The translations under genes and the position numbers were made by a program. A DNA stretch of 42,137 nt from a virus. The DNA lies in the IMG/VR virus record IMGVR_UViG_3300033183_000690, positions 1-42,137 of that record. One strand, given 5' to 3'. Below are positions 1 through 41,251 of this stretch, piece after piece. The notes under the pieces were generated by a model. That model saw only the letters and a list, made by a program, of their open reading frames with translations, had not been told where the DNA came from and made no database searches. Within the stretch, counting starts at the first letter, position 1; every line of letters starts with the position of its first letter.

Positions 1-1032
1 ATGGCTACTTTTCGTGAACGAAATGGCAAATGGCAAGCCGCAGTAATGATAGACGGCTACAGAACCTCAAAAACTTTTGAGACCAAGAAGGCTGCCCAGA
101 TGTGGGCGAAAGAGGTAGAAGCAGGAGGGAAGTCTCGCAAGAAGTTCCCTACTATGCGAGATGTATTGCTGAAGTATATAGATGAACAGCTAGTTCATAC
201 TAAAGCCGCTTACGGCAATATTAACCAAGCAAAGGTGCTGATGCGTCCTCAATGGACAAACAAGCCTTTGGATGAAATAGACACAGAGATACTATGTAGA
301 TGGCGAGACAAACAGTATGAAAGGGTCAAGCCTAAGACTGTTAAGTCTTACTTTGCTACCTACAAGACCGCCATCAACTACTACTTTGGCAAATTCAACC
401 CAGAGACACCCAACAATGTTTTCCGCAGGGTGAAACTAAAGCAGGGCTATGCAAGGGTAGTACAGCGTATTTCTGATGCAGATTTGCAGAGAATAAAAGA
501 CAACAACCCACCATTATCAGGATTAGGGCTAGGGTTTCTGATTGACTTTGCAGTGTCTACAGCAATGCGTAAGGGCGAGATGCTGAAGCTAGAATGGTCG
601 ATGGTTGATTTGGATAGTAAGTGGTTGCACCTTCCTGACCGTATCACCAAGACTGGAAGGCCACGCCAGATACCTCTGACTGAAAAAGCCGAACAAGCCA
701 TAGTGCTGTGGAAGGCTATGGATGATGAAGGTGTAGCTGTGCATCGCACAGGTAAGTTCTTCAAGACAGAAGAAGGACAGAAGCGTGTCTTCAAGATTGG
801 GCATGACCAGCTAGAAGAGATATGGAAGAAGGCCAAGCGAGGTGCTGGTCTGGATTACCTGCATTGGCATGACCTTAGGCATGAAGCTACATCACGCCTG
901 TTTGACTTGGGTTGTACTGTCCCAGAGGCGCAGTCAATCACTGGTCACGCAACTATCGAGGAACTGACACGCTACTCTCACGCATCTGGTGCGTCTGTGT
1001 TTAACAAGCTTAGAGGGGGCGGCAATGACTAA
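1..1032 (+). CDS. int: Tyrosine recombinase (phage integrase), first of a tandem pair
   Basis: This 343-residue protein is a complete phage integrase of the tyrosine recombinase family, which would integrate and excise the prophage at the tRNA-Pro site. The N-terminus (about 1-45) looks like an Arm-type DNA-binding domain with the pattern GKWQAAV then TSKTFETKKAAQMWA. A core-binding domain spans roughly 50-145. The catalytic domain carries the expected residues: R190 in AMRKGE, H290-x-x-R293-H294, H316 in TGHAT and nucleophile Y325. It starts at the first base of the window, so its ribosome binding site and promoter cannot be seen. Its 3' end overlaps the next recombinase gene by 8 bases. Its place at the left prophage end, opposite the tRNA fragment at 41207-41251, suits an integrase next to attL. 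Confidence 0.96.
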   Translation: MATFRERNGKWQAAVMIDGYRTSKTFETKKAAQMWAKEVEAGGKSRKKFPTMRDVLLKYIDEQLVHTKAAYGNINQAKVLMRPQWTNKPLDEIDTEILCRWRDKQYERVKPKTVKSYFATYKTAINYYFGKFNPETPNNVFRRVKLKQGYARVVQRISDADLQRIKDNNPPLSGLGLGFLIDFAVSTAMRKGEMLKLEWSMVDLDSKWLHLPDRITKTGRPRQIPLTEKAEQAIVLWKAMDDEGVAVHRTGKFFKTEEGQKRVFKIGHDQLEEIWKKAKRGAGLDYLHWHDLRHEATSRLFDLGCTVPEAQSITGHATIEELTRYSHASGASVFNKLRGGGND

Positions 1033-1891
1033 GCAGAAATCCCTATTTGACCAAGCAACCCCAGATAACAGCATCAGAGGCTTTGTAAAGCGTGAAGCCA
1101 GAAGGATGTGGCCAAGCAAGGAGCATCGTAAGCGCAGTCTAGCGCAGTTACGGACATTCCTAGCGTTTGACGACTTCGACAAGCGTCCATTACGCCAGTT
1201 CCTGCCTCGTGACATCCATGCTTTCAGTGACTATCTGGAACGGCAGGGCAAGTCCGCCGCTACCATCAATCGCTATCTGTCTACCGTTAGCAAGGTATTC
1301 AGTCATGCTGTTGATGAGCAAGTGATAACGCTAGCCCCCAAGTTTAAGTTCCTAAAGACGCTATCGGAGCGTCCACGGTTCTTCACTGACCATGAAGTAG
1401 CCCTGATGCTATCGTTCTTTGACGAGCGTGGTGATTGGTGGATGTCTGCTATGGTCACGCTGGCTCTCAAGACTGGTATGCGTAAGTCAGAGATACTGGC
1501 CGTAGGAGAAGGCACAGCGTCCATTACAGACTGTGGGCAGTGGATAGACCTACCTGCCGCCGTTACAAAGACAGGCAAGGCTAGAATGGTGTCTATCAAG
1601 CATCCTGAGGCCAACAAAGCCGCACATGCTATCCGTGACGGTCTATCTAGCGAGTACAGTAAGAAGCGATTTGAGTACCGCTGGGGCTTGTGTAAGCGTG
1701 AGTACGCTAGGAATGACGATACCTTCGTATTCCACGTCACACGCCACACAGCGGCTACCAAGATGGCAAATGACCTGCAAGTACCCACAGTCACTATAGC
1801 CAAGGTACTAGGTCACGCCAGTCTATCCACCACAGCAAAATATGTACACGCCAAGGACGATACGCTGGCGGATATATCTTCAAGAATGTGA
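1025..1891 (+). CDS. Second tyrosine recombinase, overlapping the first
   Basis: A 288-residue tyrosine recombinase distinct from the first. The chosen ATG at 1025 has AGAGGGGG just upstream and gives an 8-base overlap with the preceding gene; an in-frame ATG at 989 has no such site. A SAM-like core-binding domain covers about 25-105. The catalytic set is intact: R153 in TGMRKSE, H237-x-x-R240-H241, H264 in LGHAS and Y273. The overlap implies co-transcription and translational coupling. Most phages carry one integrase. Two intact ones could form a heteromeric recombinase, split integration and excision, or include a resolvase or dimer-resolution enzyme; the sequence alone cannot decide. A strong terminator follows at once. 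Confidence 0.94.
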   Translation: MTKQKSLFDQATPDNSIRGFVKREARRMWPSKEHRKRSLAQLRTFLAFDDFDKRPLRQFLPRDIHAFSDYLERQGKSAATINRYLSTVSKVFSHAVDEQVITLAPKFKFLKTLSERPRFFTDHEVALMLSFFDERGDWWMSAMVTLALKTGMRKSEILAVGEGTASITDCGQWIDLPAAVTKTGKARMVSIKHPEANKAAHAIRDGLSSEYSKKRFEYRWGLCKREYARNDDTFVFHVTRHTAATKMANDLQVPTVTIAKVLGHASLSTTAKYVHAKDDTLADISSRM

Positions 1892-1916
1892 CGTGACAAT
1901 CTATCACTGCACCATC

Positions 1917-1945
1917 AGGGGTGTCCTTCGGGATGCCCCTTTTTC
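1917..1945 (+). terminator. Rho-independent terminator after the recombinase pair
   Basis: A 10-bp stem (1917-1926 with 1931-1940, two G-U pairs) is closed by the very stable tetraloop TTCG and followed by a T run. It lies 26 bases after the second recombinase stop and separates integrase transcription from the early region. Confidence 0.92.
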
Positions 1946-2000
1946 TTTGTCTCAATCCTATTTCACACCCAAAAACCCACTTTTCCTGCCCCTTCAGAAA

Positions 2001-2016
2001 CCGCAGAATACTGCGG
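2001..2016. promoter_or_regulatory. Perfect palindrome upstream of phage promoter P1
   Basis: CCGCAG-AATA-CTGCGG is a perfect 6-bp inverted repeat with a 4-base centre. It ends 5 bases before promoter copy P1 in the gap between the recombinase terminator and the early genes. The T run needed for a plus-strand terminator is absent (it is followed by A residues). It could be an operator for an early-region regulator. I found no second copy. Confidence 0.4.
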
Positions 2017-2020
2017 AAAA

Positions 2021-2046
2021 ATAGACCCGACACTTATGTACGGAAG
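2021..2046 (+). promoter_or_regulatory. Putative phage RNA polymerase promoter P1 (early region)
   Basis: This 26-base stretch contains GACCCGACACTTATGTAC and agrees with the intergenic stretch 5386-5411 at 23 of 26 positions. A third copy sharing the core AGACCCGACA is at 15639. All three are in intergenic gaps at the head of a gene block, as expected for promoters of the single-subunit RNA polymerase encoded here; the length matches T7-family promoters. The likely start region GGAAG forms a 5-bp hairpin with CTTCC (2042-2056). If active, this copy would put the polymerase gene under its own control. Confidence 0.75.
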
Positions 2047-2089
2047 TTCTGCTTCCTACACCTCGTCAACTGAAAGAAGGAGAATGTAC

Positions 2090-2248
2090 ATGAGTTCAAT
2101 AGGACACCCAATACCAAAGCAGTCAGCTTCTGAGCGATACGCAACTGAGGCAGCCTCTGTTTACCTTAAGACGCTAGGGCTGAAGCATGAACCTAAGACT
2201 AACCTAAGTACCCTGATTACAGGCAAGAGAGATAGGAGTGGTAGATGA
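2090..2248 (+). CDS. Small hypothetical early protein
   Basis: A 52-residue protein of no recognised family, first gene downstream of promoter P1. AAGGAG at 2077-2082 sits 7 bases before the ATG at 2090, which is preferred over the ATG at 2084 and the one inside P1 at 2036. The product is basic and polar, with a helical stretch ERYATEAASVYLKTLG and a basic tail GKRDRSGR. Its stop overlaps the next start in an ATGA junction, so the two early genes are coupled. Small early genes in this place often encode host-takeover or regulatory peptides, but nothing in the sequence shows a function. Confidence 0.65.
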   Translation: MSSIGHPIPKQSASERYATEAASVYLKTLGLKHEPKTNLSTLITGKRDRSGR

Positions 2249-2481
2249 TAGACCCTAAGCTAATCACAAGCTTCGTGAACTACTGTTACGATTGGTATGG
2301 GAAGGGGGGCATCTATGACCATGATGCCTCTCGTTCTCAGGTCAAAGAGGCAGTGATGTACTACCTCTACAACCCTGATAGATACCTTGAGTTCCAAGGT
2401 GACAGCATGGACAGAGAACAGGTTCGAGAAGTGCTGGAAAGCAAGTTTGGGCTGTCTGAAATCGCCTACACGATGCACTAG
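2245..2481 (+). CDS. Hypothetical early protein
   Basis: A 78-residue protein without a recognised domain. AGGAG lies 6 bases before the ATG and the start overlaps the stop of the upstream gene by 4 bases. The sequence is rich in aromatic residues (FVNYCYDWYGKGG, then VMYYLYNPDRYLEF) and acidic in the C-terminal half, suggesting a small soluble globular protein. It lies between promoter P1 and the RNA polymerase gene. A 143-base structured gap follows. Confidence 0.7.
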   Translation: MIDPKLITSFVNYCYDWYGKGGIYDHDASRSQVKEAVMYYLYNPDRYLEFQGDSMDREQVREVLESKFGLSEIAYTMH

Positions 2482-2483
2482 GG

Positions 2484-2504
2484 GCAGTGATGATTTGTCA
2501 CTGC
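2484..2504 (+). other. Hairpin after the small early genes
   Basis: GCAGTGA and TCACTGC form a perfect 7-bp stem with a 7-base loop, starting 3 bases after the upstream stop codon. There is no T run, so it is more likely an RNA processing or stability element than a terminator. Confidence 0.45.
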
Positions 2505-2516
2505 TCATACATAACT

Positions 2517-2555
2517 GGGGGGTCTGACGAGAGTTTATCGTCATACCTGCCCCCC
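2517..2555 (+). other. Two-tier stem-loop upstream of the RNA polymerase gene
   Basis: GGGGGG (2517-2522) pairs with CCCCCC (2550-2555). Inside, TGACGA (2525-2530) pairs with TCGTCA (2538-2543) across a GAGTTTA loop, leaving an asymmetric internal loop (2 bases against 6). T7-like phages cut early mRNA at RNase III stem-loops between early genes, and this structure is in the equivalent place. That role is inference. No T run follows. Confidence 0.5.
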
Positions 2556-2647
2556 AAAATCCCCATTATACCCATAATACACAATGCAAATCTTCTTCAC
2601 ATTGTCGCCAGAGTTTTGGCATAGTGTTGGAAGATGTAAGGAGACAC

Positions 2648-5374
2648 ATGACAGACACAGATAATGCACAGTCACTGAATGACGCTCGTGAAGCCTTTGC
2701 GATAGACAAGGGTCGTGAACGTGCTGAAGAACGCAGAGAGAAGCAAGCCAAGCAGGGCGACCTTTCTGTGACTAATGCTGGTCAAATAATGGCAGATGAA
2801 AACGTGGTCGGGGTTACCAAGCAGGTAATTGCGTACATGGAGAAGCATCAGGATAGTTCAACAAACCACTGGCCAATAGCATACACACATCTCAGACATC
2901 TTGAATACGATACCATTGCGCTGATTGCCTTGCGTGTCTGCTTAGACAGCGTAGGCGCAAACTGGTCGCTTAATAACACCACAATCCAGCTAGCAAACAC
3001 AGCGAACTCAAACATACTGACGGCAATGCTAAAGCGTAATCGTGAAGGCAGACAGATGCTGAAAGCGATAGCAAAGCGTGTTGACGAAAAAGGTGGTGGC
3101 TCACAGAAGGCAAAGCGTGATTACGCACTGTGGCTAGCAAGCAGAACCATCACAGAGGGACACATCCCAGACCCAGACCCGAAAAAGGCATACGGATGGA
3201 GTGAATGGGATTTGAACACACAGGGCAAGGTTGGCGCACAGATGCTGAACTTTGTCTTAACTGGCTGTGATTTGTTCGAATTGGAATTGGTCAAAGATTT
3301 CTACGAAGATAAACATCCACGCAACGTGCTGGTCTTTACCGAACATGCAAAGGCTGAACTAGACAAGAAGAACAACTTTCTTGATGGCTTGTCGCCACGC
3401 TTCGGACCTATGTTCAATGTACCATGGGCATGGGATGCAGACAGCTTAGGACCTTACGATGATGTTTCGCTGGCCAAGCAAGTGCCAATCGTCAAGAACA
3501 TGGGCAAAGAACAGGAAGAAGCCGTCCAGAAAGCCTTAGAAGAAGGTACAATGGACAGGGCAGTTGAAGCACTCAACATCCTGCAAGAAGTACCTTACAG
3601 CGTGAATGGCTTCATTGTTGAGGCTGTAGCCTACGCTAGAGATAAGGTTCTAGCTGATGATGGTGATACAGAGGTAACCAGTTTCCCCAATCTTGTGACG
3701 CTACCTACGGTTAAACGGCTTTCTCCAGAAGCCCTAGCAAAGAAAACAAGTGGCGAAAAGGCCGATTTCAACAGGAAGATGATTAGCACTGCAAAGAGTA
3801 ATCGTGAGGTTGACGCAAACAAAATGCAGGTCAAGCGCATGATTGAAGAAGCTGAGTTGATACTGAATGAAGAGCATGGTGTAGATTGCTTCTACCTACC
3901 TCACCAATTCGACTTCAGGGGCAGGATTTACCACACAAGCGAGTTTGGTCATCACAATGCTGATTACATTCGTGCGATGTTCAATTTCGCTAACAAAACC
4001 GAAATCACCCAAGAAAACATCAAATACCTGATGCTTCAGATTGCCAATACATTCGGTCAGGGCGTTGATAAGATGAGCCTGAATAGAAGAATGGCATGGG
4101 TGCGCTTGAACAGTCGTAAGATTGCGGCTGTTGGTGCTAACTACAAAGACGAAAGCATCACTTGGGATAAGATTGATTTCGAAAAGTGGGGCTGTAAGCC
4201 TGTTGTAAATGAAGAAACAGGTGAAGTCATTCAGGAAACACCCTTCACCTACTGGGCTACAGCAGATGACCCCTTCCAATTCCTTGCGGCATGTAGAGAA
4301 CTGCACAATGCAATGAAGGCTGCTGAGGAGGGTGAGCCTTACTTCAGTGGCTTGCCAGTAGCTTTAGATGCAACCCAATCAGGCGTTCAGATGTATGCCG
4401 CAATGGGGCGTAATCGAGAGGATGGTGAAAAGGTCAACCTGACAAAGAACGAAAAGCCGGGTGACCTTTACACTGCTGTAGTCAATACAGCCAAAGAGAT
4501 GATTGATGACATCATCGAAGAACTGGAAGCTGAAAAGACACTAGATGAGAAACAGGAACGTGATTTGCTGAACGCTCGTCAGTGGAAAGCGTTTGGTCTC
4601 AAGCGAAAGCATTTGAAGAGGCCAACAATGACAGCTAGCTATTCGGCAGAAGCCTATGGCTTTGCTGACCAGATACGCAAAGACTTGATGGATAAGATAA
4701 CCAAGAGGCTTGCTCTGATAAAAGCCAGAACAGGTGAGGAGCAGGAACACCCCTTCGGTGAAGATAACGGCTTCTCTGCTTCATGGTTTATGGGGCAACT
4801 GGCCGAAGATGCCATCAAGAAAACAGTGAAATCTGCCGCCGAAGGAATGGAGTTTATCCAGCATTGGGCAAATGTATGTTCTGGTTGCAACATGCATCTT
4901 CACTACACAACACCTACTGGTTTTCCAATGATGCAGAATTACAGGAAGCGAAGCACTGCAAAGCGACCTGACATTAGTCTCTGGGACACCAAGAAAAAGA
5001 AGTACGTTGACACAAAGCTGTCACTTCAGCCTTACGGCACACAGATAGATGGAGCAAAGGCTGAACGTGCATGTTCACCAAACTTCATCCATAGCATCGA
5101 TGCTACGCTATTACAGATGGCTGTGCTTCAATGCAAAGAGTGGGGCGTGTCTGACATGATGGTAATTCATGACAGCTTCAGCACCACAATAGCCAACGCT
5201 AAGGCAATGTCTGACGGCATCCATGAAGCGTTTGTTCAGTTGTTTGACCAGAACTGCCCTTACAGCCAACTGAAAGAGCAGACTGTAGCCAGAATAGCTG
5301 AATCTAAAGATGTTCCTAAACGAAGAGATTTGGACATCCAAGAGACTAGACAAAGCGATTATCTAGTCAGCTAA
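2648..5374 (+). CDS. T7-type single-subunit DNA-dependent RNA polymerase
   Basis: A 908-residue phage RNA polymerase, close to T7 gene 1 in length (883). The ATG at 2648 has AAGGAG 4 bases upstream; a GTG eight codons earlier lacks a site. Catalytic residues align with T7: DFRGR at D422, motif A aspartate D574 (T7 D537), motif B K657-R658 with Y665 at the same spacing as T7 K631-R632 and Y639, and motif C H841-D842-S (T7 D812). The N-terminal domain is more divergent, with a charged stretch near 15-40. It should transcribe middle and late genes from the promoter motif found at P1-P3. Nothing suggests inactivation. Confidence 0.97.
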   Translation: MTDTDNAQSLNDAREAFAIDKGRERAEERREKQAKQGDLSVTNAGQIMADENVVGVTKQVIAYMEKHQDSSTNHWPIAYTHLRHLEYDTIALIALRVCLDSVGANWSLNNTTIQLANTANSNILTAMLKRNREGRQMLKAIAKRVDEKGGGSQKAKRDYALWLASRTITEGHIPDPDPKKAYGWSEWDLNTQGKVGAQMLNFVLTGCDLFELELVKDFYEDKHPRNVLVFTEHAKAELDKKNNFLDGLSPRFGPMFNVPWAWDADSLGPYDDVSLAKQVPIVKNMGKEQEEAVQKALEEGTMDRAVEALNILQEVPYSVNGFIVEAVAYARDKVLADDGDTEVTSFPNLVTLPTVKRLSPEALAKKTSGEKADFNRKMISTAKSNREVDANKMQVKRMIEEAELILNEEHGVDCFYLPHQFDFRGRIYHTSEFGHHNADYIRAMFNFANKTEITQENIKYLMLQIANTFGQGVDKMSLNRRMAWVRLNSRKIAAVGANYKDESITWDKIDFEKWGCKPVVNEETGEVIQETPFTYWATADDPFQFLAACRELHNAMKAAEEGEPYFSGLPVALDATQSGVQMYAAMGRNREDGEKVNLTKNEKPGDLYTAVVNTAKEMIDDIIEELEAEKTLDEKQERDLLNARQWKAFGLKRKHLKRPTMTASYSAEAYGFADQIRKDLMDKITKRLALIKARTGEEQEHPFGEDNGFSASWFMGQLAEDAIKKTVKSAAEGMEFIQHWANVCSGCNMHLHYTTPTGFPMMQNYRKRSTAKRPDISLWDTKKKKYVDTKLSLQPYGTQIDGAKAERACSPNFIHSIDATLLQMAVLQCKEWGVSDMMVIHDSFSTTIANAKAMSDGIHEAFVQLFDQNCPYSQLKEQTVARIAESKDVPKRRDLDIQETRQSDYLVS

Positions 5375-5385
5375 CCCCCACCCAA

Positions 5386-5411
5386 ACAGACCCGACAGTT
5401 ATGTACAGAAG
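5386..5411 (+). promoter_or_regulatory. Putative phage RNA polymerase promoter P2 (middle region)
   Basis: Second copy of the promoter motif, containing GACCCGACAGTTATGTAC, 11 bases after the RNA polymerase stop and ahead of the replication genes. It matches P1 at 23 of 26 positions. Its expected start region GAAG is the first arm of the hairpin at 5409-5432, so promoter and hairpin are physically merged. Confidence 0.78.
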
Positions 5412-5465: not shown

Positions 5466-5639
5466 ATCGACCCACGAGAGCGACTTTTGGGGATAGGGAA
5501 GCTGTACCTAAAACGTGGCGAACCTATCCCAGTTGACCTGCTTGCAGAAGCAGAAGCTATGGGGCTGACCTTATCCGAATTTGGTCTGCCTGAACACAAT
5601 GAAACAGATGATGAAGGAGATAACCATCATGCAGAATAA
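5466..5639 (+). CDS. Small acidic-tailed protein with no standard start codon (possible ATC start)
   Basis: The reading frame from 5466 to 5639 encodes 57 residues that look like real protein: a helical segment LGIGKLYLKRGEPIPVD, then LLAEAEAMGLTLSEF and a very acidic tail. A textbook AGGAG at 5455-5459 lies 6 bases before an ATC codon, with no ATG, GTG or TTG at that spacing. The frame opens at a TAA at 5451-5453. The only internal alternatives are TTG at 5487 and ATG at 5559, neither with a ribosome site. The ORF overlaps the ssDNA-binding gene by 11 bases, a typical phage junction. It is either initiated at ATC, or a recent ATG-to-ATC change or sequence error. Function unknown. Confidence 0.5.
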   Translation: MDPRERLLGIGKLYLKRGEPIPVDLLAEAEAMGLTLSEFGLPEHNETDDEGDNHHAE

Positions 5640-6165: not shown

Positions 6166-6610
6166 ACGCAGACATGCAATGGCTAAAGGCTATCGCAGTG
6201 GTTTAGAAGAAAAGATTTCCAAGCAAATCGAAGAAGCAGGATTACCAGTGTTGTATGAGACTGAGAAGGTTTCATACATCTGGCCTGAGCGGAACTCTAC
6301 CTACACACCTGACTTCATCCTGCCCAAAGGCACTGATGGTCAGATTTACATAGAGACAAAAGGCATCTGGACAGTAGAGGACAGACAGAAGTGGCATCTG
6401 GTGACGCAACAGCACCCAGAAAAGGACTTCCGTCTGGTCTTCTACAACCAGAACGCAAAGCTCTACAAGGGTAGCCCGACTACTTATGCCGCTTACTGCG
6501 ATAAGCATGGTTTCACCTACGCAAACAAAGCCATTCCACAGGAGTGGATGGAAGAAGGAGAAGGCAATGGCACAGAGCCAATACCACCAGATACTCAATC
6601 ATCTGATTGA
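6149..6610 (+). CDS. T7-type endonuclease I (Holliday junction resolvase)
   Basis: A 153-residue homologue of T7 gene 3 endonuclease, which resolves branched DNA and degrades host DNA. RSGLEEK, YTPDF, ETKG, LYKGSPT and YCDKHG are all conserved. From the start at 6149 the catalytic residues are E20, D55, E69 and K71 (T7 E20, D55, E65 and K67); the E20 and D55 numbering is identical to T7, which favours this start. An ATG at 6179, giving 143 residues, remains possible because neither start has a strong ribosome site. It overlaps the ssDNA-binding gene by 17 bases and the next gene by 44. Confidence 0.92.
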   Translation: MATISRRRHAMAKGYRSGLEEKISKQIEEAGLPVLYETEKVSYIWPERNSTYTPDFILPKGTDGQIYIETKGIWTVEDRQKWHLVTQQHPEKDFRLVFYNQNAKLYKGSPTTYAAYCDKHGFTYANKAIPQEWMEEGEGNGTEPIPPDTQSSD

Positions 6611-6767
6611 CCACGATTCAATCTCAGGGCTTGAGGCAGCTGAACTGTACAGGGTCAGAGCGTTACCTAGACGCATCAAAGACTTGAAGGAAGCTGGCTT
6701 TGAGATTGTAGATGAGTGGCGCACAGACCCACTGGGTCAGCGTTACAAAAAGTACCGACTAGCTTAA
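6567..6767 (+). CDS. Small helix-turn-helix protein
   Basis: A 66-residue protein in a frame overlapping the end of endonuclease I by 44 bases. The ATG at 6567 has AAGGAG 6 bases upstream; earlier in-frame ATGs are inside the upstream gene. The fold pattern is a winged helix-turn-helix like the short phage HTH_39/HTH_55 proteins: QILNHLIDHDSISGLEAAELY, then RALPRRIKDLKEAGFEI, then a basic C-terminal wing RYKKYRLA. A paralogue lies on the other side of the primase-helicase gene. It is a candidate DNA-binding regulator, but no operator is identified. Confidence 0.78.
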   Translation: MAQSQYHQILNHLIDHDSISGLEAAELYRVRALPRRIKDLKEAGFEIVDEWRTDPLGQRYKKYRLA

Positions 6768-15093: not shown

Positions 15094-15139
15094 AAGCCCT
15101 GAGAGACCCCCCTGCAATGTTCTCTTGGGGCTTTTTTTT
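15094..15139 (+). terminator. Strong terminator after nrdJ unit
   Basis: AAGCCC-TG-AGAGA pairs with TCTCT-TG-GGGCTT (13 bp including two G-U pairs) and is followed by eight T residues. The T run ends inside the stop codon of the convergent minus-strand gene. Confidence 0.93.
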
Positions 15140-15449
15140 ACTTCTGCATCATATAAAGGTAGACGTTACATTGTAAGCGAATTGGAACACTATTATTGAC
15201 ATCTAGTCTAAAAATAGCAGAACCTAAATTATCATATTTATAAAGGTAATACGTTTCACCCCATTCATCAGTCATTGCTTTGTGGATTTCAATTCCTTTG
15301 GCTCTAGCTTCAAAACACTTATCAATCGGTGCTTCTTCCACCCAATCCCCATAGAAAAGTTGTGTAGTTTCATCAGACCAATGTTTTATGCTCTCAGCTG
15401 ATAGTTGAAATGGAAGTAGAAGTAAAATCCCAATGACTAATGAACGCAT
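15138..15449 (-). CDS. Exported small protein (moron 1)
   Basis: A 103-residue protein on the opposite strand from all lytic genes around it. The N-terminus MRSLVIGILLLLPFQLSA is a clear Sec signal peptide with cleavage expected after LSA. The mature part is about 85 residues with two cysteines (DKCFEARAKG and LQCNVYLY), suggesting a disulphide in the periplasm. GGGAG lies 7 bases before the ATG. No family is recognised. A single inverted gene bounded by a terminator is typical of a phage moron, expressed from its own promoter in the lysogen. Two similar exported-protein genes are at 36326 and 38397. Confidence 0.8.
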   Translation of the reverse strand: MRSLVIGILLLLPFQLSAESIKHWSDETTQLFYGDWVEEAPIDKCFEARAKGIEIHKAMTDEWGETYYLYKYDNLGSAIFRLDVNNSVPIRLQCNVYLYMMQK

Positions 15450-15638
15450 GACGTTGCTCCCTAGAAATGCTTAACGGCCAGACCCACCATAAGCTGACGG
15501 ATACATGACCGCTAAGACTTTTACACATATATAGCTGTGTATGAGGTTCATTCCCTTATTCAGGGAAATCATCCCATTGTCTATAAGATACTATTTCCAT
15601 GCCAAAGTTACAAGTGTGTCTTGATTTACAGCAGTTCT

Positions 15639-36183: not shown

Positions 36184-36329
36184 TGGACCAAAATGACATA
36201 GCTATCGCCACTGGCGGTATATCAGCCCCTCTGTGGCTACCTGCACTGAACGAGTGGGTAGCCTTTTTTGTTGGGGTCTTATCGCTCATCTACCTTATCT
36301 ACAAAATATGGAATATCAGAAAAGACTAG
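36183..36329 (+). CDS. Single-TM protein, possible T7-type holin
   Basis: A 48-residue ORF whose ATG overlaps the fibre stop (TGATG). It has a polar start MDQNDIAIATGGISAP, a hydrophobic segment WLPALNEWVAFFVGVLSLIY and a basic end KIWNIRKD, the layout of small holins such as T7 gp17.5. It is the first gene of the lysis cluster. Its TAG stop shares CTAG with the stop of the convergent moron. A larger three-TM holin candidate lies at 37765, so which one sets lysis timing is open. Confidence 0.65.
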   Translation: MDQNDIAIATGGISAPLWLPALNEWVAFFVGVLSLIYLIYKIWNIRKD

Positions 36330-36706
36330 CGGTTCAGTTCAAAGATAAAAGATTTAGTTAGCTCCACAATCTCAGGGCGAATTGGTAGTTTTTTATCGCA
36401 ATTCTGAAACAGTGCCTCTATTCGTTTAATGTCACTTTTATAAGCACTATCGTGCTGTGAGTAAAAGTCACCTTTTGGGAATGAAATATTGGTTAAAGTT
36501 GCTGAAGTGTCCCACTCTAACTTAACTTCTATATTGAGTGCTGTAGTTTGGCGAAAATAACCCAGACAGCCTCTTACATGCTTGGCAAATAAAATCCTGT
36601 CATTATCTTCCCACACTTCTATGAGTGTCTTAGATTCCTCAGCTTTTAATATATGTGGTGCAAGGAATATCGACATTAGTATTAGCAGTCTGATTAGATT
36701 ACGCAT
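36326..36706 (-). CDS. Exported protein (moron 2)
   Basis: A 126-residue minus-strand protein within the lysis cluster. The ATG at 36706 has AGAGG 6 bases upstream. MRNLIRLLILMSIFLAPHI is a Sec signal peptide, with cleavage expected after LKA. The mature domain of about 104 residues has two cysteines (RGCLGYF and QNCDKK), suggesting a periplasmic disulphide, plus a beta-like LNIEVKLEWDTSATLTNI. No known family. It shares size, orientation, signal peptide and cysteine pair with moron 1 at 15138, though I see no clear sequence identity. Confidence 0.78.
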   Translation of the reverse strand: MRNLIRLLILMSIFLAPHILKAEESKTLIEVWEDNDRILFAKHVRGCLGYFRQTTALNIEVKLEWDTSATLTNISFPKGDFYSQHDSAYKSDIKRIEALFQNCDKKLPIRPEIVELTKSFIFELNR

Positions 36707-36764
36707 TTCCAACCTCTAACAAATAAGACTACACCCATCTTCAACGAAATGAATGGAGATTTCA

Positions 36765-37772: not shown

Positions 37773-38142
37773 CTTACTTATAGGACCTGTAGCTGAACTG
37801 GCAGGAACGTGGATAAAGGGCAGGGTAGAGAAGTCCAAAGCTACGGCAGAGGCGAAGGTGGCTACAGAAGTAGCTAAAGCCGCTGTGATGAAGAAGGTGG
37901 CGGCAGGTGAGATGGATTGGAATCAAGCGTGGGCTGAAGGCGCACAGAAAAGTTGGAAAGACGAGTGGCTAACGATTTTGGTAAGCATCCCCCTCATTCT
38001 GGCCTTTACAGGGTATGAGGATGTCGTACAGCGAGGCTTTGAGGCTCTTGAAGCCATGCCATCATATTATAAGACTGCATTAGGCATTGTCTTTGCGGCA
38101 AGCTTCGGTATTCAGTCGGTTACTAAGATGTTTAAGAAATAA
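37765..38142 (+). CDS. Three-TM holin, GTA_holin_3TM-like
   Basis: A 125-residue membrane protein. The ATG at 37765 has AGGAG 8 bases upstream. After an amphipathic, Ala/Lys-rich N-terminal part (KATAEAKVATEVAKAAVMKK), the segment AQKSWKDEWLTILVSIPLIL, then FTGYEDVV, then PSYYKTALGIVFAASFGIQS fits the holin family first noted with gene-transfer agents: Trp-x-Asp-Glu before a first TM and PxYY before the second. It would release the endolysin. It is the last plus-strand gene of the late operon. Confidence 0.82.
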   Translation: MLNLLIGPVAELAGTWIKGRVEKSKATAEAKVATEVAKAAVMKKVAAGEMDWNQAWAEGAQKSWKDEWLTILVSIPLILAFTGYEDVVQRGFEALEAMPSYYKTALGIVFAASFGIQSVTKMFKK

Positions 38143-38318
38143 ACGGACTGATTACCCACGCCCACACGCTCAATGCGGCTATTAGGCATAACAACCAGAA
38201 TACTATCTTGCCCCAACGCTTCTCTGGCTCACGCTGGTGAGCGTAGGTGGCAAAGGCAGACCCTTCTCTGGGCTTTTGTCTATCAGCTATACTCATACCA
38301 ATTATACCTCAATGCACA
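38143..38318 (+). other. Noncoding 3' region of the late operon
   Basis: No convincing gene. GCTCAC/GTGAGC forms a perfect 6-bp stem with loop GCTG at 38227-38242. A short CCC/GGG hairpin with CTTTT lies near 38263. The main terminator follows. Confidence 0.4.
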
Positions 38319-38347
38319 GGTCAACGGATTATCCGTTGGCCTTTTTT
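38319..38347 (+). terminator. Late operon terminator (copy A)
   Basis: GGTCAACGGA pairs with TCCGTTGGCC (10 bp, one G-U, loop TTA), followed by six T residues. It ends the late transcript before the minus-strand genes. A similar hairpin (AGGTCAA...TTGGCC plus T run) recurs at 38914. Confidence 0.92.
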
Positions 38348-38396: not shown

Positions 38397-38861
38397 TCAG
38401 TCAATACGTGTGCAAATCGCCTTCCAAGAGACGCTTCTGTCGTTTTTTGGGTTCATAGAATGATATTGAACTACACCCTTTTCTGGTAAAAAATCATACC
38501 AAATGGTTACACCTCTATTATCATCGGCATAACCACCGAAGGTATAAAACCCTGTGACATCGTCATCGATAAAGATTGCCGAAGAATCTCTAATTGCTGG
38601 TTTAATGGACAATTCAGCAATGTCATGTGAACCATCAGTATTCTTTTGAACATAAATTTCCAAAAGCCTTGCTCTTGGTTTTTTTTCAAACATTTTTCTT
38701 TGATAAATGCTGTAATGCATGTCGTCTTCACACATGAATGTCATTGTAAATTCGTCAGGCTGTTTAATATAGTAATCAATCCAGCGGTCTGCGCTAAATG
38801 CTTGTGAAGGCATCGTTAAAAAAGAGCCAAACAGCAAACATATCCTAATAAAATGCCTCAT
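38397..38861 (-). CDS. Exported protein (moron 3)
   Basis: A 154-residue minus-strand protein. The ATG at 38861 has GGAGA 7 bases upstream; an ATG five codons earlier overlaps that site. MRHFIRICLLFGSFLTMPSQ is a Sec signal peptide with a cleavage site near AFS-AD. The mature part is beta-rich with two cysteines (FMCEDDMHYSIYQR and KAICTRID), a segment ARLLEIYVQKNTDGSHDIA and VTIWYDFLPEKGVVQYH. No known family. It is bracketed by two similar plus-strand terminators, as expected for a moron cassette. It is the third exported protein with a signal peptide and a cysteine pair. Confidence 0.8.
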   Translation of the reverse strand: MRHFIRICLLFGSFLTMPSQAFSADRWIDYYIKQPDEFTMTFMCEDDMHYSIYQRKMFEKKPRARLLEIYVQKNTDGSHDIAELSIKPAIRDSSAIFIDDDVTGFYTFGGYADDNRGVTIWYDFLPEKGVVQYHSMNPKNDRSVSWKAICTRID

Positions 38862-38913
38862 TTCACTATCTCCCATAGGACGTTATGGTCTATCACTTCC
38901 CTATCTATCTTTA

Positions 38914-38945
38914 GGTCAATGCGGTTTTACATTGGCCTTTTTTTT
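38914..38945 (+). terminator. Plus-strand terminator, copy B
   Basis: GGTCAATG pairs with CATTGGCC (8 bp, one G-U, loop CGGTTTTA), then eight T residues. It points the same way as copy A although the genes on both sides read leftward. It stops rightward transcription from entering the antisense side of the 687-residue gene. The minus-strand reading of the 5' arm includes TTGACC, a possible -35 for moron 3. Confidence 0.85.
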
Positions 38946-38946
38946 C

Positions 38947-41010
38947 TTAATGTTTGGTCTCTGCGTAGTGTGCTTTGATGTGCTTAATTATCTTGTTATG
39001 CCATGCACAATATTCGTAAATCTTTTTGCCTCTCAAGTCCTTTAGATTGCTTGGTACATCTGGACAAGTCTGAGCAAAGTCATCAAACTTTTCATATTGG
39101 CTGAGACCAGTCTTTAAGAGCCAACGATTTTTGTTCTCGCCCTTTTGTATTACTTCAATCGCAATCACGCCAGTGGTGTTTGTAGCAGGAAAAAGAACCA
39201 TAACTTGATTTGCTTCTTCGTCCATTCGGTCTAGGACTTCAACTTCAATATATTCCTTATTGTTGGTATTAATTCCGCACCGAAGTGCTAACATCTCCTT
39301 GTCATGTCTGTCTTTGTTGTTAAGGACAACTTTGTATGTTTTGCCTACTAATTCCCCAAGGCGATGGTTTTTATTCAAATACTCTACGGCTTCTGTAAAC
39401 CAAGGCTTTGGGTTTTTGGCAGGGGGTTTTTTCGTTCTCTGGCTAATTTCCACACTTAAAGCTTCTTGCATGGCTTTTATCCTTGCTTCAGCTTTCTTGG
39501 CGATATTGTCTTCTTCAGTGTAGGCAAGAAGCTGGTCTTTAGCCTCTGCGAGGAAGTCATCTGTCTTTTTAGCCGCTGGAACTACATCAGCCTGTGCTTT
39601 AGCTACAATGTTGATTGCCATCGAAGCACTTGCTTCAACTATTTTTCCTGCTTCACCCTTAGCTTCTACCCCAGTGACTTGGACGGTAGTATCTTCTACC
39701 TCGTCTAGATATTCCCAGCCTTCTATTCTAGGCATTGCCACTGCAACTTGCAGTTCAGCGGCTCTTTTGCCTACTTCAAGTTCTAGCTTTTTCTTTGCGT
39801 CTTTGGCTTCTTTGGTAAGCTGTCTGACTTCTTTGTTATGTGCGTCTAGTTCGTTCCTAAGACTTGCTACATCATCATCAAACTTCGTAATTATCTGCTG
39901 GCGAGTAATGCGTAGTTCCTTCAGCCTTACTTGCTTGTCCAGAAAATCCTTCTGTTCCCACCAGTCCATTGTGCCTTCGAGACTGCTTTGGAAGTCTTGG
40001 GCAGCCATTGGGTCATCAGCTTCAGAGGGCTGACCAATGATGAGGTCAGGCCAAACACTAGCTGGAATGATTTCGGCAAACTCATTTTCTAGGGCTGTGA
40101 TTTCAGAAGATACAGACAATAGTTCACTTTGGTGTTCCTGCTGTTGGTTAACCAATGTCTTTTGCATCTCTTGGATGCGTTTTCTAAACCTTGCTAATGT
40201 ATCTAGCTTTCTATTGGCTTCATCCACCAATACCTTGATTTTGGCTTCGTGCTTCTTAGCTTGAGCCATGCGCTTGTCGTAGTTCTCTGCCTCTTCGTTG
40301 AGGTACTGCAACTTGTCTTGGGCTTCCTGCCAAGAACGCTTCATGGCTTCTTCTGAAATTTCGTCCCAGATGCGCTGTTCAGCTTCAGCCTCAATAGCAT
40401 CGATTTCGTCTAATTCTTCTAATGCTTTCAACTGGTCTTCAGAAAGTAGGTGCTTAAACTCCTTGCCATCAAACATAGCTTGGATGGCTTCTTTCGGAAT
40501 GTCTCCCAGATGCTGACCGAACTGTGTTATGGCCTCTGAAGCTTCAGGATATTCGTTTGGCTGGATGTGCAGGGCTGGAGAACCGTTTAGCTCGTACTTT
40601 TGGATTATCTGTTCCAAGTCGGTACAATGCTTCTGTAATTCCCATACTTCTTTGGTGAATTGCAGTCTTTCGACCCAGAAGATACCCACAGTGTTTGCAT
40701 AGAAGGTGAGGGTGCTACCGACAATTTCTTTCCGTGCTTTGATTTCGCTAGCGCAGAACTCAAGCATCTTAGGGTCAGAAATATCGTAATACATCGCAGA
40801 CTGAAGGAAGTCGATTCGGTTCATATTACGTTGAACCTCTTTCACCTCATCTTCGAAACCTGACTTAGTAAGTTCTTCGTCAAGCCCATTAAGGATTTTC
40901 CGTAGGCTAGTTATCCTTTTGTAAGACAAAGGGTAGTCGTGCTTGGCCTTAATTAGCCTAGCCTTTGCGTCTTTGCCTTCAGGGGTGTTAAGAAAATCTT
41001 CAGGTGACAT
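38947..41010 (-). CDS. Large coiled-coil protein, unknown function, next to attR
   Basis: A 687-residue minus-strand protein, the largest accessory gene. No family is recognised and no signal peptide or TM segment is seen. Charged helices likely to form coiled coils cover about 20-70, 190-330 (EEAENYDKRMAQAKKHEAKI, NQQQEHQSELLSVSSEIT) and 370-440. A helical Ala-rich part lies near 465-540. The last 150 residues look globular (HRLGELVGKTYKVVLNNKDR, YIEVEVLDRMDEE, VMVLFPATNTTGVIAIEVIQ) and end KIYEYCAWHNKIIKHIKAH. It has no clear ribosome site, and a predicted promoter puts transcription start at the ATG itself, so it may be a leaderless mRNA. Being beside attR and opposite to lytic genes, it is a good candidate for lysogen expression, for example defence or superinfection exclusion (inference). 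Confidence 0.82.
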   Translation of the reverse strand: MSPEDFLNTPEGKDAKARLIKAKHDYPLSYKRITSLRKILNGLDEELTKSGFEDEVKEVQRNMNRIDFLQSAMYYDISDPKMLEFCASEIKARKEIVGSTLTFYANTVGIFWVERLQFTKEVWELQKHCTDLEQIIQKYELNGSPALHIQPNEYPEASEAITQFGQHLGDIPKEAIQAMFDGKEFKHLLSEDQLKALEELDEIDAIEAEAEQRIWDEISEEAMKRSWQEAQDKLQYLNEEAENYDKRMAQAKKHEAKIKVLVDEANRKLDTLARFRKRIQEMQKTLVNQQQEHQSELLSVSSEITALENEFAEIIPASVWPDLIIGQPSEADDPMAAQDFQSSLEGTMDWWEQKDFLDKQVRLKELRITRQQIITKFDDDVASLRNELDAHNKEVRQLTKEAKDAKKKLELEVGKRAAELQVAVAMPRIEGWEYLDEVEDTTVQVTGVEAKGEAGKIVEASASMAINIVAKAQADVVPAAKKTDDFLAEAKDQLLAYTEEDNIAKKAEARIKAMQEALSVEISQRTKKPPAKNPKPWFTEAVEYLNKNHRLGELVGKTYKVVLNNKDRHDKEMLALRCGINTNNKEYIEVEVLDRMDEEANQVMVLFPATNTTGVIAIEVIQKGENKNRWLLKTGLSQYEKFDDFAQTCPDVPSNLKDLRGKKIYEYCAWHNKIIKHIKAHYAETKH

Positions 41011-41016
41011 GAGCCT

Positions 41017-41046
41017 AGTGTATCACATTTGGGTGTGTCTTCTCAA
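41017..41046 (-). promoter_or_regulatory. Predicted leaderless promoter for the coiled-coil gene
   Basis: On the minus strand TTGAGA (41041-41046) and TACACT (41017-41022) are 18 bases apart, with TG one base before the -10 (extended -10). Six bases after the -10 comes the ATG at 41010-41008, so the expected start site is the A of the start codon. Confidence 0.55.
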
Positions 41047-41090
41047 CTTTTATGTTCGTCTTTTGTTCTCTTTAGATGACTTGGCGAGTG

Positions 41091-41112
41091 CTTGGCGCAA
41101 TCTTGGCGCAAT
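41091..41112 (+). repeat. Tandem 11-bp repeat near attR
   Basis: CTTGGCGCAAT occurs twice head to tail, with a third partial copy CTTGGCGAGTG at 41080-41090. It is about 95-130 bases inside the right attachment site. Short direct repeats at this distance are typical of integrase arm-type or excisionase sites. Confidence 0.6.
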
Positions 41113-41206: not shown

Positions 41207-41251
41207 TTTGGGACCAGAGGGCCGGGAGTTCGAATCTCTCCACTCCGACCA
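41207..41251 (+). tRNA. 3' fragment of tRNA-Pro(UGG), right attachment site (attR)
   Basis: The segment starts at an anticodon loop TTTGGGA (anticodon UGG). It continues through the 3' anticodon strand CCAGA, a 5-base variable region GGGCC, T arm GGGAG-TTCGAAT-CTCTC, acceptor strand CACTCCG, discriminator A and encoded CCA. Upstream bases (AGTCGC) cannot pair with CCAGA, so the 5' half is missing. CACTCCG-A-CCA matches alphaproteobacterial tRNA-Pro. The crossover core is therefore expected within the 45-base 3' half; the complete tRNA should lie just left of position 1. Confidence 0.85.

Follow-up and report, generated by a model that had tools for sequence, protein, structure and literature searches.

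Directly across its attachment site from two tandem integrases, the provirus described here carries a 687-residue orphan gene that is oriented against the lytic genes and is probably an accessory gene expressed in the lysogen. This gene, herein called cc, occupies positions 38947–41010 on the minus strand of the window, that is, the whole stretch of DNA analysed, whose 42137 bases make up one virus record. Its assignment as a lysogen-expressed accessory gene draws on its position, strand, insulation, and turnover, all read from sequence. The fuller reading, namely that of a quickly exchanged accessory gene in an attP-side slot that is expressed in the lysogen and acts on incoming phages, is put forward tentatively and with less than even confidence.

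The window, a prophage of an uncultured bacterium, opens on the left with an integrase start codon and extends on the right to a short-chain dehydrogenase, the latter being taken as host DNA. The first tyrosine integrase, int1 (1–1032, plus strand; Pfam PF00589, E 6.9e-22), is overlapped by a second one, int2 (1025–1891, plus strand, open frame from 989 with the ATG at 1025; PF00589, E 8.3e-18). A T7-type RNA polymerase, a primase-helicase, and a family-A DNA polymerase are recognised by profile matches. The recognised structural genes, meaning those for the DNA ejection protein, portal, capsid, and terminase, are grouped on the plus strand. The nearest portals are those of the Pseudomonas phages UFV-P2 and NV1 and of Aeromonas phage LAh_8 (28–30% identity), and the nearest capsids those of uncultured spring phages (39–40%). 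A marine lineage that infects SAR116 and has LUZ24-like structural genes is discussed in excerpts of PMC10386132. The host of the provirus is uncertain, since the dehydrogenase points in two directions: its best segment is 82% identical to the metagenome-assembled genome (MAG) UBA2954, an alphaproteobacterium, and its best E-values belong to Rhodobacteraceae-labelled genomes at 69–70% identity.

The layout resembles that of the temperate T7-like phages LUZ100, HTVC019P, and Pasto, in which, according to excerpts of PMC10134795, a tyrosine integrase likewise lies upstream of the single-subunit RNA polymerase and which share the T7-type primase/helicase and the family-A DNA polymerase. Unlike these phages, the window has two tandem integrases, no adjacent MarR-like regulator among the open frames scanned, and a large minus-strand gene across attP, and its nearest portal (UFV-P2, NV1, LAh_8) and capsid (uncultured spring phages) are other ones.

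The open frame of cc comprises 691 codons and yields, started at its ATG, a protein of 687 residues. Because an in-frame TGA lies just 5′ of this ATG, no earlier start is possible. The codon usage fits the phage's own genes, with a mean log-likelihood of −1.015 compared with −1.002 to −1.133 for the 14 phage genes behind the codon table and −1.22 for two shifted frames of cc. GC content at cc is 43–45%, slightly under that of most of the window. An earlier note on this DNA had described the gene as unlike any recognised family, and this holds throughout. Nothing above chance is found in Pfam, PHROGs, NCBIfam, PADLOC, or the PDB. No homologue was returned by tblastn against phages and plasmids, by searches of viral contigs with the whole protein, its first 200 residues, or its last 164 residues, or by a search of genome contigs; the same result was obtained for 40 related viral records (from 80 portal loci kept) in a search that ran without a positive control. 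The scans of related loci rely on exact octapeptides and hence miss distant kin. Three matches in 136 genomes of UBA2954's order (E 0.05–0.07) were judged to be chance, as was one in 385 genomes of its class (E 0.007), where the open frames are response-regulator-like, and a PADLOC line to Cas2_IIIa (E 0.011 over 42 residues). No P-loop of the type GxxxxGK[ST] is seen by eye, and the literature searched yielded no description of the gene.

The same note had described the product as a coiled-coil protein with a C-terminal globular part. The coiled coil stands for two stretches, residues 221–250 and 371–411, where the heptad signal exceeds that of shuffled sequences in a crude scan of our own. 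An AlphaFold2 model of the whole protein, computed from the single sequence with no alignment, places long helices at residues 220–312, 350–425, and 453–523 and strands at residues 558–639, all at a pLDDT of 50. Its poor confidence offers no basis for a fold search. Hydropathy peaks within the predicted strands, at residues 603–621, with a 19-residue Kyte-Doolittle mean of 1.65. The usual membrane cut-off is 1.6, and a membrane stretch at this position is possible.

The right attachment site lies next to cc, as the earlier note had proposed. Its core (41207–41251, plus strand) consists of 45 nt from the 3′ part of a tRNA-Pro(TGG), and its assignment follows from matches in bacterial genomes, ARAGORN calls, and a shared attP in a related phage contig, IMGVR_UViG_3300017913_002157 (L182). 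The core is exact in 31 of 136 genomes of UBA2954's order and present with at most two mismatches in 57 of the 136; it was not found in the MAG UBA2954 itself. Of 12 loci fetched, five were scanned with ARAGORN, which calls it tRNA-Pro(TGG) in these. In the window, the tRNA lacks its 5′ half, and attL lies outside the window. In L182, identity with the window runs over 49 nt, and phage genes flank the core on both sides, which identifies the L182 core as attP. Taken together, the sequence comparisons establish attR as real. The start of cc is about 200 bp away from the core. In between, three 11-bp direct repeats beginning with CTTGGCG (41080–41112, plus strand) are seen by eye and are absent from the listing of the repeat program; in L182, comparable 11-bp direct repeats of different sequence (3105–3182) likewise lie between the core and the large gene on the minus strand. 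In both phages, these repeats are possible arm-type integrase sites. In one bacterial genome (G172, contig C28), an int2-like fragment (78–524, 30% identity) is located about 1.2 kb from a tRNA-Pro(TGG) core with one mismatch (1731–1775) and may be what is left of a related prophage integrated there.

Upstream of cc, a match to a host-type promoter is found on the minus strand. It consists of a −35 box, TTGAGA (41041–41046), an 18-nt spacer, and the −10 box TACACT, with a TG one base ahead of the −10, the extended −10 reading TGATACACT (41017–41025). The −10 ends 6 nt before the ATG, and hence the predicted transcription start coincides with the A of the cc ATG (41010). At this predicted spacing, cc falls under the definition of a leaderless gene as one with its +1 at most 5 nt from the start codon. 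The claim that an extended −10 promoter places the start on the ATG was thus borne out as a sequence match. An equally good promoter at leaderless spacing occurs at only 3 of the 1653 ATGs (0.18%), namely at cc, at 2634 (plus strand), and at 38057 (minus strand). The absence of a Shine-Dalgarno site is likewise upheld: the anti-Shine-Dalgarno energy is −1.8 kcal/mol, which ranks 33rd among 39 starts, compared with a mean of −2.5 for random 20-mers. Six starts have weaker energies still, including those of the portal gene and of the open frame at 38876 as listed, so that the missing site at cc alone is not distinctive.

A leaderless start of the cc mRNA is therefore a fair prediction, drawn from the spacing of the −10. 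The alternative, which we regard as unlikely, is that the promoter is a coincidence and cc either is not expressed or has a transcript that starts at an unrecognised site further upstream, with weak initiation. It concerns the start and not the function of cc, and it may hold together with any reading of the latter. For it speak the number of promoter-like sites between 36100 and 41500, which is near chance (13 compared with 9.5, sd 3.0, in shuffles), the two other ATGs that score equally high, the six weaker Shine-Dalgarno energies, and the fact that the arrangement is not conserved in L182. Against it, only 0.18% of ATGs match as well, and the long intact open frame with phage-like codon use implies that cc is expressed. 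The mRNA of lambda cI, which the earlier note had taken as a parallel, is leaderless with its +1 at the ATG and is expressed in the lysogen. No repressor domain is matched in cc, the leaderless state of which is predicted only. Leaderless transcripts are not rare in alphaproteobacteria: for Zymomonas mobilis, a member of this class, excerpts of PMC7566282 give 119 leaderless cases among 2,675 pairs of transcription start site and gene. The likeness to cI hence carries little weight, and a leaderless start neither proves nor suggests a role in defence.

The phage's own polymerase probably uses other promoters. A 28-nt motif, AGACCCGACA(C/G)TTATGTAC(A/G)GAAG, occurs in two full copies, both on the plus strand, one after int2 (2019–2046) and one after the RNA polymerase gene (5384–5411), where none is expected by chance. 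From their location, these copies are candidate promoters of the phage polymerase. A partial copy lies near 15637 (plus strand). With up to three mismatches allowed, 0.13 copies are expected per window and four are found. A copy matching at 15 of 17 positions (2508–2524, minus strand) is directed leftward into the integrases; during the lytic cycle, it could drive transcription antisense to int, or it may be a chance match. Scanning of the window revealed no copy at or ahead of cc. L182 carries two copies of a related motif after int2, at 5528 and 5574, and no copy of this pair ahead of its large minus-strand gene. Scored with the window motif, a minus-strand stretch at 2207, inside that gene, reaches 17.5 of 28, slightly more than the 16 of the L182 pair; it lacks the exact TATGTAC(A/G)GA shared by the pair and was taken as chance.

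Two terminator-like hairpins with T runs on the plus strand, one after the lysis genes (38318–38342; −16.9 kcal/mol, z −5.0) and one just past the stop codon of cc (38913–38938; −11.2 kcal/mol, z −3.8), should halt plus-strand transcription before it reaches cc. Such sites number 11 in the sequence scanned, compared with 5.9 (sd 2.5) in shuffles. Given the plus-strand location of both full motif copies away from cc and the two predicted terminators, host RNA polymerase should transcribe cc against the lytic programme. By sequence, cc is hence its own transcription unit, opposed to and insulated from the lytic genes, in agreement with the opposition claimed before. Read on the minus strand, the hairpin past cc lacks a T run, and the cc transcript may therefore run on into a gene for a 154-residue protein with a signal-peptide-like start (38397–38861, minus strand; second ATG at 38861 with GGGAG ahead, open frame from 38876). 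This protein (38397–38876) shows no family at E ≤0.05 in Pfam, PHROGs, NCBIfam, or PADLOC. It is one of three small minus-strand proteins whose starts resemble signal peptides by eye, the others being encoded at 36326–36712, for which the same four libraries give no match at E ≤0.05, and at 15138–15449, which was scanned with PADLOC only.

L182 was reached by the searches with int1 and with the lysozyme alike. Its gene order is lysozyme, a 121-residue gene, a 693-residue gene on the minus strand, attP, int1, int2, and RNA polymerase. The 693-residue gene thus has the slot, strand, and size of cc; the sequence differs. Compared with the window, the L182 neighbours show identities of 69% (lysozyme), 41% (int1), 73% (int2), 34% (RNA polymerase), and 68% (primase), whereas cc and the 693-residue protein show no BLAST similarity (BLASTP E 0.65). 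The content of the slot has thus changed more than any neighbour compared, as is expected of exchanged cargo. The 693-residue gene has a Shine-Dalgarno site (−5.6 kcal/mol), and its best promoter at leaderless spacing scores 8 points compared with 10 for cc; by these sequence measures, leaderless expression is not kept in the counterpart. Its protein has a heptad signal not above that of shuffles, matches no family in Pfam, PHROGs, or PADLOC, and finds nothing in phages or in the 136 genomes and only itself among viral contigs.

The close pair of int1 and int2 is shared only by L182 among the loci fetched, other relatives showing int2 alone. In 14 relatives that have int2 and in which no int1 was found, the slot between lysis genes and integrase measures 0.4–3.0 kb, and its longest opposite-strand open frame encodes 42–161 residues. 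A large minus-strand slot gene is therefore present in both phages with a close int1, the window and L182, which are close kin, and in 0 of the 14 relatives in which only int2 was found. This tally covers 15 loci including L182; L190 was omitted as the same contig as L182, and L169 for want of a recognised lysozyme. The lysozyme of L165 is a different one, and the figures are equal within the pairs L197/L201 and L199/L200, whose members may be near-copies. The other seven loci from the int1 search (24–39% identity) show no clear counterpart in their open frame lists (five, and two more judged by frame size). One candidate, a 574-residue frame in L185 (10946–12670, minus strand), was rejected; it faces the integrase end, is strand-rich and without family, and reaches at best E 2.5 to cc or the L182 protein. 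In L187, a 1027-residue frame (309–3392, minus strand) lies beside a cut-off integrase, a remoter relative of int1. In three known phages with similar integrases, the part inspected upstream of the integrase contains no opposite-strand gene above 125 residues. Content and presence of the slot gene thus vary among related phages at the same site.

Whether cc and the L182 protein share ancestry was assessed by their C-terminal parts of about 155 residues, which align end to end at 21% identity in a region picked after both sequences had been viewed. Herein, hhalign gives a probability of 0.1 (E 0.45) for the two proteins. In comparison with natural protein ends, the last 150 residues rank 7 and 11 of 2500 by global score, and a longer C-terminal part ranks 4 of 1729 and 1 of 2103; by local alignment, the ranks are 37 and 28 of 2500. 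The 150-residue score is reached by 21 (plain) and 38 (local-window) per 1000 shuffles, the longer one by 7 and 32. The N-terminal score is reached by 103–194 per 1000, meaning no signal, and that of the whole protein by 17 and 81. Under three scoring schemes with 300 shuffles, the local score is reached by 110, 137, and 21 and the global score by 3, 2, and 7. A structure model of the C-terminal pair has a pLDDT of 45.5, likewise too low to support a fold search. The two-row C-terminal profile finds nothing in 385 genomes, only its source record among 30 viral records, and at best E 0.12 in the PDB. Homology of the two proteins is hence suggestive only.

The best explanation of this arrangement is that cc is a lysogenic-conversion gene filling a cargo slot next to attP, the phage being temperate and equipped with a T7-type RNA polymerase and tandem integrases. 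Once the phage is a prophage, the sigma70 RNA polymerase of the host would read cc from the gene's extended −10 promoter, which lies some 160 bp inward of attR, and the mRNA would begin at the ATG or within a base or two of it. The plus-strand terminators and the lack of a phage-polymerase promoter would separate cc from the lytic programme. The product may be an elongated oligomer, helical in its N-terminal part and continuing in long stretches of coiled coil, with an α/β domain of about 150 residues at the C-terminus as the likely working or recognition part. It would sense or block a component of an incoming phage and thereby protect the lysogen. Prophage accessory loci commonly act on incoming phages.

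Accessory genes of prophages are often strongly expressed in lysogens, as described in excerpts of PMC7067206. One of these, bstA of the Salmonella prophage BTP1, is like cc a single gene of unclear function that is on in the lysogen, which for cc is predicted. According to the same excerpts, bstA shares the cI transcript, whereas cc has its own promoter beside attR; their sequences were compared through profile libraries only. Tha, the HEPN defence of a Staphylococcus prophage, would be a further parallel if the reading is right, being one prophage gene that guards the lysogen (PMC11087260, in part); no HEPN or other Pfam domain is matched in cc. Against the reading as accessory or defence gene stand the lack of any match to a defence family, a structure, or the literature, the fact that this type of slot is known from two instances, and the L182 counterpart, which by sequence is not leaderless and shows no heptad signal beyond that of shuffles. 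The PADLOC models give no convincing match for cc and none for its L182 counterpart, and fast divergence of a slot gene alone does not mean defence. The earlier note had singled out cc as an undescribed defence system. What stands is an orphan gene at the att side that is probably transcribed by the host; defence, with no defence model matching, is a possible role guessed from position.

The presence of cc follows int1, which makes a role as integrase partner the main rival. Herein, cc and int1 would form one module, in which cc, a partner in lysogeny or recombination that binds attP/attR DNA, the integrases, or the phage polymerase, sets the direction or timing of integration or represses the lytic genes, replacing the MarR-like regulator of other temperate T7-like phages. 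Since cc and the L182 gene both occur with int1, both could serve integration or its control. The tally of two of two against 0 of 14 int2-only relatives fits this proposal, as do the start of cc about 200 bp from the core behind repeats resembling arm sites and the lack of a MarR-like or CI-like regulator beside the integrases in the subset of window open frames scanned. GInt islands, as described in excerpts of PMC5385486, require a fourth, non-integrase gene besides three recombinases, and the LUZ100 MarR-like regulator is cotranscribed with the integrase (PMC10134795, in part). ginD of GInt and TnpC of Tn554 are, like cc, non-integrase genes tied to tandem tyrosine recombinases; however, GinD is a small protein that shares an operon with its three recombinases (PMC5385486, same excerpts), whereas cc has 687 residues and is divergent from two. 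Against the partner role, cc lies on the strand opposite to int, its divergence from the L182 protein far exceeds that within the int1 pair (41%) and the int2 pair (73%), a DNA-binding domain is not matched, and only two phages, both close kin, carry the combination. The window also encodes a winged helix-turn-helix protein (6486–6767, plus strand; HTH_39, E 2.3e-13), a candidate regulator that could itself fill this function. The partner role is not likely on present evidence.

The anatomy of the locus would be identical if cc were cargo for host fitness other than defence, namely a scaffold that changes the physiology of the lysogen, possibly in concert with the secreted-looking 154-residue protein. 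Possible cotranscription with 38397–38861, the intervening hairpin lacking a minus-strand T run, is in line with this. However, no enzyme, transport, or metabolic family is matched in cc, and L182 has no second minus-strand gene after the counterpart, the plus-strand 121-residue gene ending beside its stop codon; this role is rather improbable.

Finally, a late or virion protein on the other strand, for instance one injected with the DNA, is highly improbable: size and coiled coil like those of cc are common in virion proteins and a weak PHROG tape-measure line exists (phrog_167, E 0.16), but this tail line is the best structural one, the PDB gives none below E 0.05 (so that the virion match named in the earlier note as contrary evidence was not found), no phage-polymerase promoter copy reads cc, terminator-like hairpins set it apart, and the recognised structural genes, including that for the DNA ejection protein, lie together on the other strand.

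Returning to the accessory reading, if cc protects lysogens, prophages of uncultured bacteria would keep a slot for defence cargo beside attP, the proteins of which escape the defence models searched. If its role is instead with the paired integrases, the temperate T7-like phages would gain a further controller, their lysogeny control having so far been a MarR-based hypothesis (PMC10134795, in part). It is a doubtful, more general proposition that phages with paired integrases carry, across attP, quickly replaced and largely helical proteins of about 690 residues that have a C-terminal α/β domain, are read by the host polymerase, and form a new lysogen-borne phage-exclusion system or integrase-coupled lysogeny controller unrelated in sequence to described ones. 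Whether cc serves protection or the integrases, the slot provides a rule for finding more such genes, which is to look across attP from int1.
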